56,632 bases of DNA, from the NCBI GenBank assembly GCA_001819985.1, contig MHOE01000024.1:4704-61335 (forward strand), read 5' to 3'. Both the position numbers and the translations under genes were made by a program. The DNA is from Candidatus Spechtbacteria bacterium RIFCSPHIGHO2_02_FULL_43_15b. GTDB lineage: Bacteria; Patescibacteriota; Minisyncoccia; Spechtbacterales; HO2-43-30. The notes below the pieces were generated by a model that saw only the letters and a list, made by a program, of their open reading frames with translations, did not search any database and was not told the DNA's origin. Positions 8,216-22,267 of the stretch are shown here, piece after piece (position 1 is the first letter of the stretch; each line of letters begins with the position of its first letter).

Positions 8216-8266
8216 TACAATAACAAACAGCCCGCCTTAGTTCAAGGTGGGCTGTTTGTTATTGTA
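8216..8266 (-). other. Long near-perfect hairpin immediately upstream of the J-domain gene start
   Basis: TACAATAACAAACAGCCC.CCTT ... AAGG.GGGCTGTTTGTTATTGTA; the SD-like AAGGG directly abuts the 3' arm. Confidence 0.85.
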
Positions 8267-8337
8267 GTAAATAATCATAATTCGGAGGAACATCGGTAAT
8301 GCGACTTTCCTTTTTTCGCATATTTATAACCTTATAC

Positions 8338-8371
8338 GAGAAGAGGACTTCCTTTCGAAAATCCTCTTCTC
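8338..8371 (-). other. Perfect 10-bp hairpin in the small-ORF region
   Basis: GAGAAGAGGA ... TCCTCTTCTC. Confidence 0.8.
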
Positions 8372-8391
8372 TATAAAGTTGTAAAATGGTT

Positions 8392-8541
8392 CTACAAGAG
8401 AACCAAAGGTGGAGGAATAAACATAAAGTCGATTACTCCACCATCGGTTGCCTCGTACGCCATCGGATTTGCAAATCTTGCTTGGAATTGGAATTTGTTC
8501 TGATCACTTAACTCTCCATCTCTATACGGATATAGTAGCAT
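8392..8541 (-). CDS. Possible 49-aa (or shorter) ORF ...ARFANPMAYEATDGGVIDFMFIPPPLVLL; start uncertain
   Basis: Open frame; the stop TAG lies at the loop/3'-arm junction of hairpin 8387-8405. The ATG overlaps the promoter spacer (8532-8560), so the real start or coding status is unclear. Confidence 0.3.
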   Translation of the reverse strand: MLLYPYRDGELSDQNKFQFQARFANPMAYEATDGGVIDFMFIPPPLVLL

Positions 8542-8560
8542 ATTCTACGCAAAATGTCAA
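8532..8560 (-). promoter_or_regulatory. Consensus sigma70 promoter with extended -10
   Basis: TTGACA - TTTTGCGTAGAATATGC (17 nt) - TACTAT. Confidence 0.8.
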
Positions 8561-8656
8561 ATAATTTTACGGACGCTATCGCGATGACACTCGTTCCGCG
8601 CTCATAATCCAACTCACAATTCTTTTTATTATAAGCTCGATTATGAGGGGGCGTCA

Positions 8657-8770
8657 TCAAATGATGCGCCCCAGCCATGCCCCCGCAAGGGGGGCAAGGA
8701 CTACCCCTACCCAAAAAATTGGGTCGGGAATCTTTATCTGTAAAATTTTTATTATTACCGTAAATAACAT
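8657..8770 (-). CDS. Putative 37-aa hydrophobic small protein (MLFTVIIKILQIKIPDPIFWVGVVLAPLAGAWLGRII)
   Basis: Not in the ORF track. Strong SD GAGGAG before ATG; consensus promoter upstream (8807-8835); one TM-like segment. Confidence 0.65.
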   Translation of the reverse strand: MLFTVIIKILQIKIPDPIFWVGVVLAPLAGAWLGRII

Positions 8771-8806
8771 AAAAAACTCCTCAAAATTTGCTTCTTAATT
8801 GTTTAC

Positions 8807-8835
8807 ATTATAGCATATCCAGACCATTTTGTCAA
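8807..8835 (-). promoter_or_regulatory. Consensus sigma70 promoter with extended -10
   Basis: TTGACA - AAATGGTCTGGATATGC (17 nt) - TATAAT. Confidence 0.88.
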
Positions 8836-10764: not shown

Positions 10765-13700
10765 ATGGCTTCAAGTTTCACCCACCTACATGTACACTCC
10801 CATTACTCTCTTCTGGATGGCTTATCAAAAATTCCCGATCTTTTGGATTACGCGAAAAAACTCGGCATGGATTCTGTCGCGCTTACCGATCACGGCGCGA
10901 TGTATGGAATAATTGAATTCTACAAAGAAGCCAAAAAACGAGGCATTAAACCTATCCTAGGCATAGAGGCGTACATAGCAAACAGGACAAGATTCAACAA
11001 GCAACCGGGCATGGATGACAAGCGATACCACCTCACGCTTCTTGCCAAAACCAACCAGGGCTACAAAAACTTAATAAAGCTTTCTTCCAAATCCTATCTT
11101 GAGGGTTACTATTATAAACCGAGGATGGATAAAGATTTGCTTCGCGAATATTCTTCGGGAATAATCGCTCTGTCCGGATGCCTCAACGGCGAAATACCCA
11201 AAGCAATCCTTGGAGCGCGCAATAAAGACGCGGAACGACTTATCATTGAATACTCCGAAATATTCAAAGACAATTTCTATCTTGAACTCCAGCACCACCC
11301 CAATATTCCCGAACAGCAAAAATTAAATAAAGCCCTTGTGGAATATGGAAAAAAATTCTCGATTCCGCTTGTCGCCACTCAAGATTCGCATTATCTTCAT
11401 CCGGAAGACGCTGAAGCGCAGGATATTCTCCTTGCCATACAAACCGGGGAAAAAATAACCGACCCCAAAAGAGGACTCACTATGAAGGACGAGGATTTTT
11501 CCCTTAAATCCTCGGATGAAATGCGGGACGCTTTCAAAGATACCCCTGAAGCTTTTGAAAACACCGCTAAAATAGCGGATCAATGCGATGTTGAAATTGA
11601 ACTTGGCAAAAATAAATTGCCTTATTTTGAAGTCCCCGATGGCTATGCCGACAGCAACGGTTATCTAAAAAAATTATGCCTCGACGGACTAAAGCGAAGG
11701 TTTGATTTCGACATATCAAAAATATCGAACTATGAATTGCCCGTAGCCGAACAAATTCACCGCCTTTCTCCGTCTTTGCCAAAACATAAAGATTCTTCCC
11801 GAGAACCCGAAACAAATTCCGCGCCTTTAGACGATGAAAAAACCGCCGTCATCGCGCGGCGGCTCGATTATGAACTCGGTGTAATCCGACAAACCGGTTT
11901 CGCTCCATATTTTTTAATAGTGCAGGATTTCATAAACTGGGCGAAAAATACGGGAATAGTGGTTGGGCCGGGCCGAGGATCCGCCGCCGGTTCTTTGGTT
12001 TCCTACCTCCTCAATATTACGAATGTGGACCCCCTCAAATATGACTTGATTTTTGAACGATTTCTCCAGCCGGAACGAAACGAAATGCCCGATATAGATG
12101 TTGACTTTGCCGACACTAGGCGCGATGAAGTTTTGGAATATGTTGCTCAAAAATACGGCCGAGAAAATGTTTCCCAGATAATAACTTTCGGAACAATGGC
12201 GGCGCGCGCCGCGATAAGAGATGTCGGAAGGGTGCTCAATTACCCATACGACTTCTGCGACAAGGTTGCAAAAACAATACCGATGATGATGAATTTCGAA
12301 AAAGCCCTGAAGGAAAGCCAGGAATTCGCCACGCTTTATACTGGGGATAGCGATGCGAAACGCCTCATTGATGCCGCGAGAAAACTGGAAGGCGTGGCGC
12401 GGCACGCCTCAACCCACGCATGCGGAGTCGTCATATCCAAAGAACCACTATCAAACATAACCCCCCTTCAGCTTCCATCACAAAACGGAGCGGGAGTCAT
12501 CTCGCAATACGAAATGCACGCCATAGAGTCGCTTGGACTCCTAAAAATGGACTTCCTTGGGCTTAAAAACCTCACGATAATTGAAAAAACTCTTGACCAA
12601 ATAAGAAGATCTAAAGACACCGACATAGACATAACAAAAATACCGCTGGATGACGAAAAAACTCTTCGCCTTTTCCGTCAAGCCAACACAACGGGAGTAT
12701 TTCAGCTTGAAAGTTCCGGAATGAAACGGTACTTAAAAGAACTCAAACCAAGCGCTTTCGAAGACATAATCGCCATGATAGCGCTGTATCGTCCGGGTCC
12801 AATGGAATTGATTCCCGATTTTATAAACAGAAAGCACGGCAAAACTCCTATAGAATACCTACATCCCAAATTGGAACCCATATTAAAAAACACCTACGGA
12901 ATAGCCGTCTATCAGGAACAGGTCCTCGAAATAGCGAGAGAGCTCGCGGGTTTCACCTACTCGGAAGCGGATGTTTTGAGAAAAGCCATAGGCAAGAAAA
13001 TCAAGGAACTGCTCGAAGAGCAGAGGGAAAAATTCATCAAAGGAATAGAAAAAAATGGCCTTCCCCGCCAGCTGGGAGAACGCCTATTTCAATTCATTGA
13101 ACCGTTCGCCAGATACGGCTTCAACAGAGCTCACTCCACATGTTACGCTACAATCGGCTGGCAAACTGCGTACTTAAAAGCCCACTATCCCACGGAATTT
13201 ATGGCCGCGCTTCTAAACGCCGAGCAAAGAAACATAGACAGGATCTCTTTCCTAATAGATGAGTGTCGAGATATGAAAATAAGCGTTCTGCCTCCGGATA
13301 TAAATGAAAGCCAGCACGATTTCACAGTTTCCTCGGGCAATATAAGATTCGGCCTCGCGGCCGTCAAAAATGTGGGCGACCATATAGTTGAGGAGGTGAT
13401 CAAAGAAAGAAACGCTCATGGTCCGTACGCGAGCGTTGAAAATATGCTCGAAAGAGTCCAAGATAAGGACTTAAACAAAAAGTCCCTCGAGAGTTTGATA
13501 AAGTGCGGGGCTTTTGACAAACTGGATGAAAGAAATCGGCTCCTCCAAAACATTGACGCGCTTCTCAAATATTCAAAAGATCACAAATCAATAGCGAATT
13601 CTTCCCAGATAAGCCTATTCCAAGACCAGCCGATATTCGCCGGGTCGCTTAGATTAGAACAGGCTGAACCCGCAAAGCAAAACCAGATGCTTGCCTGGGA

Positions 13701-18563: not shown

Positions 18564-19610
18564 TTATAAACCAAGAGCTTTTTTTCCGTTTATGGTCAGC
18601 ATATCCGCTATTTTTTCGATGCTTCCATGATATCTAGCGGAATGAACAAGAACGGAGACATCCTTCCAAATATCGCCGTCGCACCACGGCATATACAAGT
18701 CCCGTACATTATCTATGCCGACGGCCACATTTACCTTAGCTTTAAGAGCCAGTGTCCACGGCGCGATTGAATTATGCGTAGGCGCGAGAACCTCTCTTAT
18801 CTGTAGGTTATCGAGCGTGGCCCTTGGGCATACTATCATGCTTACATTGCTTTCAGCCATCATCGTAAGCGTGTACGAAATAAGCTGATCGTCATTCCAT
18901 GCCGACATCGAAAGACAATGCGTCGCGCATATCGGCTTTTTGTATCCCATATCTCTGTATCTTGCCGCTATATTTGCGAGATAAAAAGTTTCTTTTTCTT
19001 CGGGATGATTTTTTTGGTCAACCTGCATATCCACGCCTTTTCCGAACTCCGCGGCAATCTCGAAAGCGCGTTCCATCTCCGCAAACACCGCGGGGTCTTT
19101 CACTACGCCCCTCTGCCGTTCTCTCGACGGAAGAAAACCGATTGAATCCACTTCTTGGCGCCTGCATGCTTCTCTCAATAACGCATCCATGGCGGTATTT
19201 TTAAGCGCTAAGGTCGGATACACGGCTATTTTAAGAATGAAACCATACCTTCTCCATAATCTTTTTGCTTCTATACAGACATTAAGCGCATCGAGGTCTA
19301 TATCTGGACCTACATCCACATATGTTTGCCACGCGCAAATACCCATTGCTCTTCGACGCGTTATTGAATAATTGAGTCGCCTTACAAGCGTCGCGAGAGC
19401 TTCTTTTCGTACCTTTCCGATCTCCACCCATATATCGTCGAGTTCCAGATCTTTTTTGCCTCGCTTGTCGTATTGCGCCTGTGTCGATGTGTTTTCTGTC
19501 ACAGCATGACCGTGGCAATCTACGATTCCCCCAAACACTAACTTCTTTAATTCGTCTATCGGTGAATAGCAAGGAGCTTCGTGGGACAAATCCAAGCATA
19601 CTTCCATCAT
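18564..19610 (-). CDS. Amidohydrolase, cytosine deaminase-like
   Basis: DCHGH metal motif, VDQKNHPEE, ATHCLSMSAWNDD, GIDNVRDLYMPW; SD GAGGCG before MMEVCLDL. Confidence 0.75.
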   Translation of the reverse strand: MMEVCLDLSHEAPCYSPIDELKKLVFGGIVDCHGHAVTENTSTQAQYDKRGKKDLELDDIWVEIGKVRKEALATLVRRLNYSITRRRAMGICAWQTYVDVGPDIDLDALNVCIEAKRLWRRYGFILKIAVYPTLALKNTAMDALLREACRRQEVDSIGFLPSRERQRGVVKDPAVFAEMERAFEIAAEFGKGVDMQVDQKNHPEEKETFYLANIAARYRDMGYKKPICATHCLSMSAWNDDQLISYTLTMMAESNVSMIVCPRATLDNLQIREVLAPTHNSIAPWTLALKAKVNVAVGIDNVRDLYMPWCDGDIWKDVSVLVHSARYHGSIEKIADMLTINGKKALGL

Positions 19611-19684
19611 CGCCTCGCTCTTAGTTTTTGTTAAATGCGCGTATGCGCAAAAATTGTACAATAAATCGCTTTTTCGCGCAACCA

Positions 19685-19715
19685 AAAACTAACGGGGTCA
19701 GACCCCGTTAGTTTT
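19685..19715. repeat. Dispersed palindromic repeat, copy 2
   Basis: AAAACTAACGGGGTCAGACCCCGTTAGTTTT. Confidence 0.88.
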
Positions 19716-19721
19716 GAAAAA

Positions 19722-19808
19722 GCCACAAAGCTATAAAGGATATGTGAGAGTGAGGAGAGAGTTTTTGTTCAAAAGAACAACTCTCATATTCCCTTACAGC
19801 TTTGTGGC
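19722..19808. repeat. Long imperfect foldback inverted repeat
   Basis: GCCACAAAGCT...AGCTTTGTGGC outer arms; TTGTTC AAAA GAACAA apex. Confidence 0.85.
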
Positions 19809-19821
19809 GGCTAGTGTTGCG

Positions 19822-20106
19822 TTAACCCGCAACACTAGCCGAAGATTCTTCTTGCCAAATTATACCTACATCCCCCAAGTACGCAGTGTCCTTTTGCCGT
19901 TCTTTGTAAACGGCACGCACCACATCCCATGGCGCATCCGTCACCAGGAAAAATAATTTCTCCTGGCCATCATTATCGAGCTCCTCGAGCTCGATAAAAT
20001 AAATTTCGGTTCTGCCTTTTCCTTCTAACCCCGTCGCCCGTATTGAACGGGCAAAATCGTAGGCGGCCAAACCACCGCCTATAAACCCAAAAGACACGAT
20101 ACCCAT
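19822..20106 (-). CDS. Small hypothetical protein (94 aa)
   Basis: SD AAGGGAG before ATG; stop TAA in the loop of hairpin 19809-19840. Confidence 0.7.
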   Translation of the reverse strand: MGIVSFGFIGGGLAAYDFARSIRATGLEGKGRTEIYFIELEELDNDGQEKLFFLVTDAPWDVVRAVYKERQKDTAYLGDVGIIWQEESSASVAG

Positions 20107-20207
20107 ATTATCTCCCTTTTTATTTGTTATTTCTCACGGGTCTGGAGGACTGAAGCCCAAGCAAAGTAACTGGCCCTCCTCCAGGCCCGCAAGAAATAAT
20201 TTTGGGA

Positions 20208-20241
20208 GCGTACAGGAATTTTTTCAATATTTCCCGTACGC
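20208..20241 (-). other. Hairpin between the 84-aa and 94-aa small ORFs
   Basis: GCGTACGGGAA ... TTCCTGTACGC. Confidence 0.75.
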
Positions 20242-20259
20242 CCCTAGTCGCCGTGCAGG

Positions 20260-20514
20260 TCAATTCCTCGACCTGCACGCCCTGCACTCGCAGGGACGAG
20301 GCCCCCGCAGAATGGCCTTCACGATCTCCGCGGGGGTTACCCCCCCGATTCCCGCTACATCCGGCCCCCCGCGGAGCCGGAAGGCCTCCCTCACCATGGC
20401 CATGGCCTCGGTGAGGATTTTTCTGCTCAGCGCCCTATCCGGCGCTGAGATCACACCACCTCTCCTCACCACGGCCATGGCCTCGGTGAGGAGAGGGCTT
20501 CCAATAGTAGTCAT
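20260..20514 (-). CDS. Small hypothetical protein (84 aa) with internally repeated LTEAMA[VM]VR motif
   Basis: SD AGGGAGGAG before ATG; GC-rich; several internal hairpins; stop inside hairpin 20253-20278. Confidence 0.65.
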   Translation of the reverse strand: MTTIGSPLLTEAMAVVRRGGVISAPDRALSRKILTEAMAMVREAFRLRGGPDVAGIGGVTPAEIVKAILRGPRPCECRACRSRN

Positions 20515-20516
20515 AA

Positions 20517-20564
20517 CTAACTCCTCCCTCTCTTCTGATTTGAATTTGGCCTACGACGACCCAT
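20517..20564 (-). CDS. Putative 15-aa ORF MGRRRPNSNQKRGRS
   Basis: AAAGG upstream of ATG; sits directly before the 84-aa ORF. Confidence 0.35.
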   Translation of the reverse strand: MGRRRPNSNQKRGRS

Positions 20565-20620
20565 GATTAACACCTTTCGCAAGCGCTAAAGCGCTTGCGG
20601 GCTCACGGGCCGAGCGTCGG

Positions 20621-20770
20621 CTAGTCTTCAACGAAGACATACCTCAAGACATAATTTGCTTTGCTAAATAATCTGCTTAAAATCGAAGCTCGCTTAACTT
20701 TTTTGCCGGAAACCTTAGCGGTTTTGGCAGTTTTAACGCGAACTTTAATCGCGATGTCTCGTTTTTTCAT
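20621..20770 (-). CDS. Putative 49-aa basic protein MKKRDIAIKVRVKTAKTAKVSGKKVKRASILSRLFSKANYVLRYVFVED
   Basis: Not in the ORF track; Lys/Arg-rich with a hydrophobic/aromatic C-terminus; downstream of a consensus promoter. Confidence 0.6.
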   Translation of the reverse strand: MKKRDIAIKVRVKTAKTAKVSGKKVKRASILSRLFSKANYVLRYVFVED

Positions 20771-20853
20771 ATTTGTGTCAGAAAAAAGCTCCAGAATCGC
20801 ATAAATAAGCCATTGCTTTTAATATGCAACTGAATCTTTTAGATTATATCTGT

Positions 20854-20882
20854 ATTATAGCATAAATAGCCAAGTATGTCAA
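20854..20882 (-). promoter_or_regulatory. Consensus sigma70 promoter with extended -10
   Basis: TTGACA - TACTTGGCTATTTATGC (17 nt) - TATAAT. Confidence 0.9.
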
Positions 20883-20920: not shown

Positions 20921-22267
20921 ATGAAAAACCTCTTAAAATATCCAAACCTCAAAAAAACAGACCCGGAAATCGCTGGAATAAATACCTCCGAAGAAAAACG
21001 GCAATTTTTGTACGCGAATTTCATAGCTTCCGAAAACTACGCCTCTCCCGCCGTTCGAGAAGCAAGCTCATCGGTCGCAACGAACAAGTATTCCGAAGGT
21101 TACCCCTCCAAAAGATACTATAAGGGAAATGATGTCGCCATAGATCCGGTTGAAATTTTAGCCCAAAAAAGAGCGTTAAAACTTTTTCAGTTAGACGAGG
21201 AGCAATGGGGCGTCAATGTACAGCCCGCTTCCGGAAGCGAAGCGAATATGGCGGTTTACGGCTCGCTTTTGAAAGCAAAGGGTCAAAATGAAGATATCGC
21301 TCTTGGAATGCGCCTAGATTTCGGAGGGCATCTCACGCACGGTTTCCATGTGTCGTTTTCTGGAAAATTTTTCCATTTTGAACAATACGGATTGGATAAA
21401 AGCGGACGCATAAACTATGAAGAGATTGAAATTTTAGCCCAAAAATTTCAGCCAAAACTGATAGTTTGCGGGGCTTCCGCCTATTCCCGAGTAGTTGAGT
21501 TTGATAAATTCGGCGCGATAGCCAAAAAATATGGGGCTTTGCTCATGGCCGATATCGCCCACATAGCAGGGCTCATAGCCGGAGGCGTTCATCCGTCTCC
21601 ATTCCCCCATTGCGACATAGTAACAACCACGACCCACAAAACCCTGCGAGGCCCGAGAGGCGCGATGATTTTCGCAAGAAAAGACAAAACTCTGGAAACC
21701 GCGTCCAAAACTTCCCCGCTGAATCGGAATTTGAATTCAAAAAAACAAAAATCTCTCTTTGATCTAATAAATTCTGGGGTTTTCCCCGGACTTCAGGGCG
21801 GACCGCATAACCAGCAAACAATGGCGATAGCCGTGTGCCTCAAGGAGGCCGATACTTCAAAATTCCGCAATTACGCCTCGAGGGTTGTAAAAAACGCGGA
21901 AATTCTCGCGGATGAACTTGTCAAATGCGGATTCAGCATAGTTTCCGGAGGCACAGACAACCACCTTATGCTTCTCGATCTCCGGCCTTTTCAAGTGAAC
22001 GGCGAAGATGTTTCGCAATGGCTGTATCTTGCGGGAATCGTTACGAATAAAAACGCCGTACCGAACGACCCTCTGCCCCCGCAACAGGCATCGGGCATAC
22101 GGCTCGGCACGCCTGCTATGACCACAAGAGGTATGGGTCCAAAGGAGATGAAAATGTTCGCGAAATGGATACATTCCGCGGTAACGGATCATTCGGATAA
22201 GAACCTTGAAAACATAAAAAAGCGAGTTCGCGATTTGTGCAAAAATTTTCCGCCGCCCGGATTCTAA
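20921..22267 (+). CDS. glyA: Serine hydroxymethyltransferase
   Basis: ASENYASPAVREA, TNKYSEGYPSKRYYKGN, TTTTHKTLRGPRGAMIF. Start chosen at internal Met; the track start is 20876. Confidence 0.96.
   Translation: MKNLLKYPNLKKTDPEIAGINTSEEKRQFLYANFIASENYASPAVREASSSVATNKYSEGYPSKRYYKGNDVAIDPVEILAQKRALKLFQLDEEQWGVNVQPASGSEANMAVYGSLLKAKGQNEDIALGMRLDFGGHLTHGFHVSFSGKFFHFEQYGLDKSGRINYEEIEILAQKFQPKLIVCGASAYSRVVEFDKFGAIAKKYGALLMADIAHIAGLIAGGVHPSPFPHCDIVTTTTHKTLRGPRGAMIFARKDKTLETASKTSPLNRNLNSKKQKSLFDLINSGVFPGLQGGPHNQQTMAIAVCLKEADTSKFRNYASRVVKNAEILADELVKCGFSIVSGGTDNHLMLLDLRPFQVNGEDVSQWLYLAGIVTNKNAVPNDPLPPQQASGIRLGTPAMTTRGMGPKEMKMFAKWIHSAVTDHSDKNLENIKKRVRDLCKNFPPPGF

Follow-up and report, generated by a model that had tools for sequence, protein, structure and literature searches.

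The unit divergent from glyA and its promoter

The window, by which we mean the whole 56,632-nt stretch of DNA analysed, contains the serine hydroxymethyltransferase gene glyA at 20921–22267 on the plus strand (an ORF with a predicted start codon) and, reading away from it on the minus strand, a series of small ORFs punctuated by hairpins. These lie downstream of an extended sigma-70-type promoter at 20854–20882 (minus) that agrees with the consensus at 12 of 12 positions (TTGACA-N17-TATAAT, with TG before the -10 hexamer), as an earlier reading of this DNA by eye (hereafter the sequence-only reading) had described it. That reading's minus-strand ORFs of 49, 15, 84 and 94 aa are all present, and so are its hairpins at 20578–20599, 20252–20279, 20208–20241 and 19808–19841 and its foldback at 19722–19808. 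There are 18 perfect stems of at least 10 bp (loop no longer than 60 nt) in the 56.6-kb window, and seven of them lie at 19621–20496. The promoter of glyA itself would abut the minus-strand promoter.

Exact TTGACA-17-TATAAT sequences stand on the strand opposite glyA in five of the seven genomes of the order (G000, which is the genome of the window, and G002, G003, G004 and G006), and the glyA-divergent promoter of G001 differs by one mismatch (-10 sequence TATACT). Such exact sites number just 5–15 per genome in the order (15 in G000, a Patescibacteria genome of 939 kb, where the reversed control gives none), so the divergent promoter can be considered conserved across the order. The glyA genes of the closest relatives are 62–77% identical, and an alignment across the three members of the window's family covers both the minus-strand promoter and the glyA side; among 13 genomes further away, none has a perfect divergent promoter at its glyA locus. 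As judged from these comparisons, the order has kept the unit's promoter and its position, and the small ORF content differs between genera, since a homologue of the 84-aa ORF is found in G001, a probable one of the 49-aa ORF in G002, and the 94-aa ORF is an orphan. The conserved elements of the unit are largely RNA, as described below.

The small ORFs and their hairpins

The Lys/Arg-rich 49-aa ORF (20621–20770, minus) is the best of the six frames by codon usage, but weakly so. In G002 this place holds a 44-aa Lys/Arg-rich ORF that aligns with it (shuffle p about 3e-4) and, by sequence, is probably its homologue; the similarity to an ORF of family f41 is marginal (shuffle p 0.04), and homology to a basic ORF near the G001 RNA described below is unsupported (shuffle p 0.25). 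The hairpin that follows at 20578–20599 (minus) has a fold z of -2.8, and beyond it lies the 15-aa Arg-rich ORF MGRRRPNSNQKRGRS (20517–20564, minus), read from the sequence, whose end overlaps the ribosome binding site of the 84-aa gene (GAGAGGGAGGAG, 20519–20532, minus).

The 84-aa ORF (20260–20514, minus) has a duplicated LTEAMA[VM]VR motif, encoded by a 29-bp direct repeat (20389–20417 and 20464–20492, 97%), and a C-terminal CxCxxC. The duplication, the internal hairpins and the high GC content had all been pointed out from the sequence and are seen here, the last as 67.5% GC at 20300–20499 versus about 45% around it. A genome search found an 81-aa homologue in G001 (E 7e-5), also divergent from glyA; the two proteins are 52% identical across the last 29 C-terminal residues with CxCxxC kept, and none of 20,000 shuffles aligned as well. 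On this comparative evidence the 84-aa ORF is a real gene. Weak matches of the 84-aa alignment profile in G323, G385 and G533 are due to chance, consisting of overlaps with genes in other frames or containing stops. The stop codon of the 84-aa gene lies inside a perfect hairpin at 20252–20279 (minus, fold z -6.4), and a further hairpin follows at 20208–20241 (minus, fold z -6.7).

The 94-aa ORF (19822–20106, minus) has a GGGAG ribosome binding site and a codon score of 0.129, which falls within the range of the window's long genes, and its stop codon lies, by sequence and folding, inside a perfect hairpin at 19808–19841 (minus). It has no relative in 286 genomes, and neither it nor the 84-aa ORF has one among 50,697 phage records. 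Structure prediction, which the sequence-only reading had proposed for each peptide, gave an unusable model of the 84-aa protein (pLDDT 53) and a possible lead for the 94-aa protein. One of five AF2 models of the latter, built from the single sequence, has a pLDDT of 73 and a ferredoxin-like topology, and its best PDB matches in Foldseek are PII-like (E 1e-4, TM 0.5–0.6). The modelled fold is beta-alpha-beta-beta-alpha-beta, like that of the PII-like proteins SbtB and TTHA0516; unlike them, the 94-aa protein matches no PII profile of Pfam or NCBIfam (its only match there is DUF1292 at E 0.03, below the cut-off), its identity to them is about 10–15%, and the TM-score stays at 0.5–0.6. A PII-like or ferredoxin-like fold is thus possible from the model, as a lead and not as a classification.

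Structured RNAs in the unit

RNA-A is a hairpin at 20127–20199 (minus; model core 20134–20191). At the same place in G002 there is a 58-nt ungapped match with 20 pairs, five of them changed on both sides; 97.5% of the cells are paired, falling to about 50% when the partners are slid by one column. With two sequences to go on, the shuffle control is of modest strength (25 of 500). A pattern search of 188 genomes and a model search of 122 found one copy each in G000 and G002, both adjoining glyA, with no model match in the 120 other genomes. The compensatory changes indicate that RNA-A is a structured hairpin that one sister genus has conserved at the corresponding position. Similar-looking GGAGGAG hairpins in G003 and G006 were picked out by eye and dropped because the model missed both at E 5, and matches of model R2 in G016, G021 and G122 (E 0.02–0.08 per genome) are what chance would be expected to give across 122 genomes.

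RNA-B, at the predicted end of the transcript, is a terminal foldback at 19722–19808 (minus) followed by U5. Its fold z is -9.6 with 34 pairs spanning the loop, and folded together with the hairpin at 19808–19841 it reaches -13.9. The loop motif AAACUCUCUCCUCAC (19750–19764, minus) is predicted to be unpaired (P(unpaired) 0.97). The longest word common to the glyA-divergent transcripts of G000, G004 and G006 is CTCTCTCCTC (2 of 2000 shuffles gave one as long), and in each of them it stays unpaired, as the loop of a long hairpin close to where the transcript would end. The outer stems of these three hairpins differ in sequence yet pair in register around a near-identical loop: over 13 pairs there are six double changes, 94.9% of the cells are paired, none of 500 shuffles did as well, and slid versions are less than 50% paired. 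A two-sequence covariance model in a blind search recovered the window RNA-B at E 0.88 only. G002 and G003 keep the divergent promoter and lack the exact loop motif. From the folding and covariation we are highly confident that RNA-B is truly a structured RNA and a conserved one.

A CU-loop RNA class in other genomes

We define the class to which RNA-B belongs by an AAWCUCUCUCCUCMC loop that is unpaired within a long stable hairpin. The pattern AAWCTCTCTCCTCMC occurs at nine places in nine of 223 genomes of the taxonomic class and its reversal at none. Six of these matches are new, in G001, in G117 and in four genera of family f41; in G001 the motif lies elsewhere than at glyA, 834 nt downstream of a different perfect promoter. 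Every one of the nine is part of a very stable hairpin (z -7.3 to -10.9, 21–49 pairs across the loop), and the chance control, ten exact 16-mer matches in viral contigs, does not (z -3.9 to +1.1). A stem pattern, CTGGAGGA...TCCTCCAG, was also tried in viral contigs and was too unspecific for use.

In the four f41 genera the RNA is a stand-alone conserved rod of about 155 nt. It has an M16 peptidase gene on one side and, as G189 and G116 show, a divergent typA-like GTPase gene on the other. Its own promoter, TTGACA-16-TATAAT, precedes the loop by some 107 nt, and the closing stem is followed by a run of U. The probability that the loop is unpaired is 0.54–0.61 in G001 and G117. The window, G117 and G001 have the loop within the apical hairpin or on its 3′ side and the other members have it on the 5′ side, so the overall topology of the class is not fixed.

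No Rfam 15 model (6S, SRP, tmRNA, RNase P and riboswitches included) matches the island or its relatives at the gathering score, and the sole match at E 0.002 among the RNA members is to a microRNA model, far below cut-off. Our literature search found nothing on such an RNA, nor any work on regulatory RNAs from the Candidate Phyla Radiation, and the class is apparently undescribed. The sequence-only reading had recognised no known family here, and indeed neither a protein nor an RNA family matches the unit; its picture of a real, expressed-looking small-gene unit divergent from glyA holds, and what it had overlooked is the conservation of two hairpins as structured RNAs, one of which, at 20127–20199, was absent from its list. 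As the class can be found with a 15-letter pattern and confirmed by folding, it is a directly testable RNA class in mostly unculturable organisms, and at the glyA-divergent locus such an RNA stands alongside rapidly changing small proteins.

Shine-Dalgarno pairing and other explanations

The RNA-B loop is complementary to ribosome binding sites of the GAGGAG type. Its predicted duplex with the ribosome binding site of the 84-aa gene (-17.3 kcal/mol) is the best among the 34 long-ORF starts of the window and the unit's own; the other start sites reach -12.3 kcal/mol at best, with a median of -3.5, and 0.1% of random 28-mers from the window pair with the loop as well. Within the transcript it pairs most strongly with the GGUGAGGAGAGG arm that lies in the 84-aa gene (-21.4); the 84-aa ribosome binding site comes next, and then other purine-rich stretches that include an arm of RNA-A (-15.6). 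The loop is unpaired in full-transcript folds, and against partial 16S rRNA it finds no complementarity better than two mismatches. The G004 loop pairs with the window's ribosome binding site better than the window's own loop does, cross-genus pairing is equally good, and shuffled loops equal the real pairing in 2.6% (window), 28% (G004) and 11% (G006) of cases. Because the pairing is not specific to its own partner, the Shine-Dalgarno step is one that we infer.

The best overall explanation, to which we give a probability of roughly 0.6, is a glyA-divergent unit that encodes small proteins together with RNA-B as an anti-Shine-Dalgarno regulatory RNA. It would be a single transcription unit under a strong promoter, its ORFs turning over, that expresses the 49-, 15-, 84- and 94-aa proteins and ends in RNA-B, the closing stem and U-run of which would probably double as the terminator. 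The loop would be an anti-Shine-Dalgarno sequence that pairs with GAGGAG-type ribosome binding sites, above all, in cis, with the one that serves the 84-aa gene and in addition with others in trans, and would thereby lower translation. The pairing step taken by itself we rate at somewhat under even odds.

It may be instead that the small proteins are what matters, for example as a Cys-rich metal-binding peptide and a PII-like sensor, and that the RNA only tunes their translation. The syntenic 84/81-aa pair with its CxCxxC, the PII-like model of the 94-aa protein and short ORFs containing Cys that occupy this place in G004 and G006 would suit such an account; it is made doubtful by the lack of ORF conservation across the order and by the f41 RNA, which has no such ORF. 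The loop could also be a site for a protein or the ribosome, serving as decoy or sponge for a protein that binds pyrimidines, with an sRNA logic like that of 6S or CsrB. Near invariance of the loop between families, which could not have the same targets throughout, would be expected of such a site, and the rod-like stems and the stand-alone f41 RNA with its consensus promoter are in keeping with it. We consider it rather unlikely, given that the loop is a good complement of Shine-Dalgarno sequences and that no 6S or other credible Rfam match appears even at E 10 on 261 nt.

That the hairpins are merely terminators or mRNA-stabilising 3′ ends, with the loop similarity a by-product of composition, would agree with the U-run that follows the closing stem both in the window and in f41, and with the intercistronic hairpins that overlap stop codons. 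This is improbable: a plain terminator has no need of a conserved 14-nt unpaired loop, the stems diverge while the loop stays conserved, and G004 and G006 have a separate terminator-like hairpin 3′ of RNA-B. An integron-like cassette array or a transposon or phage remnant is brought to mind by small ORFs that each have a hairpin under one promoter and by a dispersed palindrome that adjoins the unit, and the sequence-only reading had itself named such a remnant, or neutral decay without homologues, as what would speak against it. The hairpins share no common sequence in a repeat search, so there are no shared attC-type sites; the 84- and 94-aa ORFs have no relatives among the 50,697 phage records; and the promoter and its place at glyA are conserved in the order. 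This origin seems to us scarcely credible, and with homologues found at the same locus in sister genera the unit is not decaying.

Parcubacteria are thought to have few regulators. A broader version of the anti-Shine-Dalgarno explanation, which we regard as speculative and less likely than not, is that they use a family of hairpin RNAs with a near-invariant anti-Shine-Dalgarno loop lineage-wide as a general translational regulator, fused at glyA to fast-evolving small proteins under RNA control.

Comparison with known systems

By analogy, RNA-B would work like known Shine-Dalgarno-binding regulatory RNAs, and it is a member of no family tested. Anti-Shine-Dalgarno sRNAs of alphaproteobacteria (alpha-r14/cuckoo RNA) carry CCUCCUCCC loops, usually several. 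RNA-B resembles them in having a conserved anti-Shine-Dalgarno loop on hairpins with variable stems; it differs in its loop sequence, those RNAs carrying CCUCCUCCC, and the comparison, made through the Rfam scan, gave no match. The f41 form is like 6S RNA in being a rod whose ends pair and in having a strong promoter to itself, but it has no Rfam 6S match at E 10, its loop is single-sided and a central bubble is not demonstrated.

In the icaR 3′-UTR of Staphylococcus aureus, a UCCCCUG motif has been shown by experiment to pair with the Shine-Dalgarno sequence (PMC3868564). As there, the transcript has towards its 3′ end, in RNA-B, a pyrimidine motif that can pair with a Shine-Dalgarno sequence of the same mRNA; here, however, the motif (CUCUCUCCUC) is in a hairpin loop, the pairing is predicted, and the class also occurs as a stand-alone RNA. 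The Gram-positive sRNAs with C-rich loops (RsaE/RsaA type; RsaA, PMC3961350) likewise have an unpaired C/U-rich stem loop that can bind Shine-Dalgarno sequences, but RNA-B has another loop and another architecture and is without Rfam similarity to them. The predicted pairing would fit cis feedback like that of the icaR 3′-UTR, a trans-acting anti-Shine-Dalgarno sRNA, or both.

Neighbouring elements and similar loci

The dispersed palindrome AACTAACGGGGTCAGACCCCGTTAGTT at 19685–19715 is REP-like, has about 11 further copies elsewhere in the genome and one in G001, and probably does not belong to the unit. An amidohydrolase/cytosine-deaminase-like gene (18564–19685, minus) follows the unit in the window; G001 and G002 lack it between these neighbours. 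In G004, a cREC_REC (cyclic-phosphate processing receiver) protein is encoded downstream of RNA-B (L055:5047-5403; Pfam E 6e-22).

The glyA unit is not the sole one of its style, since a second unit with promoter, small ORF and hairpins lies in the window at 8216–8835 (minus), between rnhB and a DnaJ-like gene. This unit has its own perfect extended promoter, which drives a hydrophobic ORF of 37 aa (MLFTVIIKILQIKIPDPIFWVGVVLAPLAGAWLGRII), with a further promoter-like site and several hairpins. Elsewhere in the same genome, at L226 (G000:C16:11300-12600), a perfect promoter at 12473 (minus) is directly followed by the hairpin AGGUUCUCCUCC...GGAGGACCU, another hairpin RNA of Shine-Dalgarno/anti-Shine-Dalgarno-like character, and at L224 (G000:C8:1-115, minus) a perfect promoter with a terminator-like U7 hairpin some 75 nt beyond it marks a likely unannotated sRNA. 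Finally, the glyA-divergent region of G003 (L178, 505–1500) has three perfect promoters, of which two agree at every position of a 29-nt stretch, and downstream of every one stand GC-rich hairpins in an arrangement that resembles an sRNA array.
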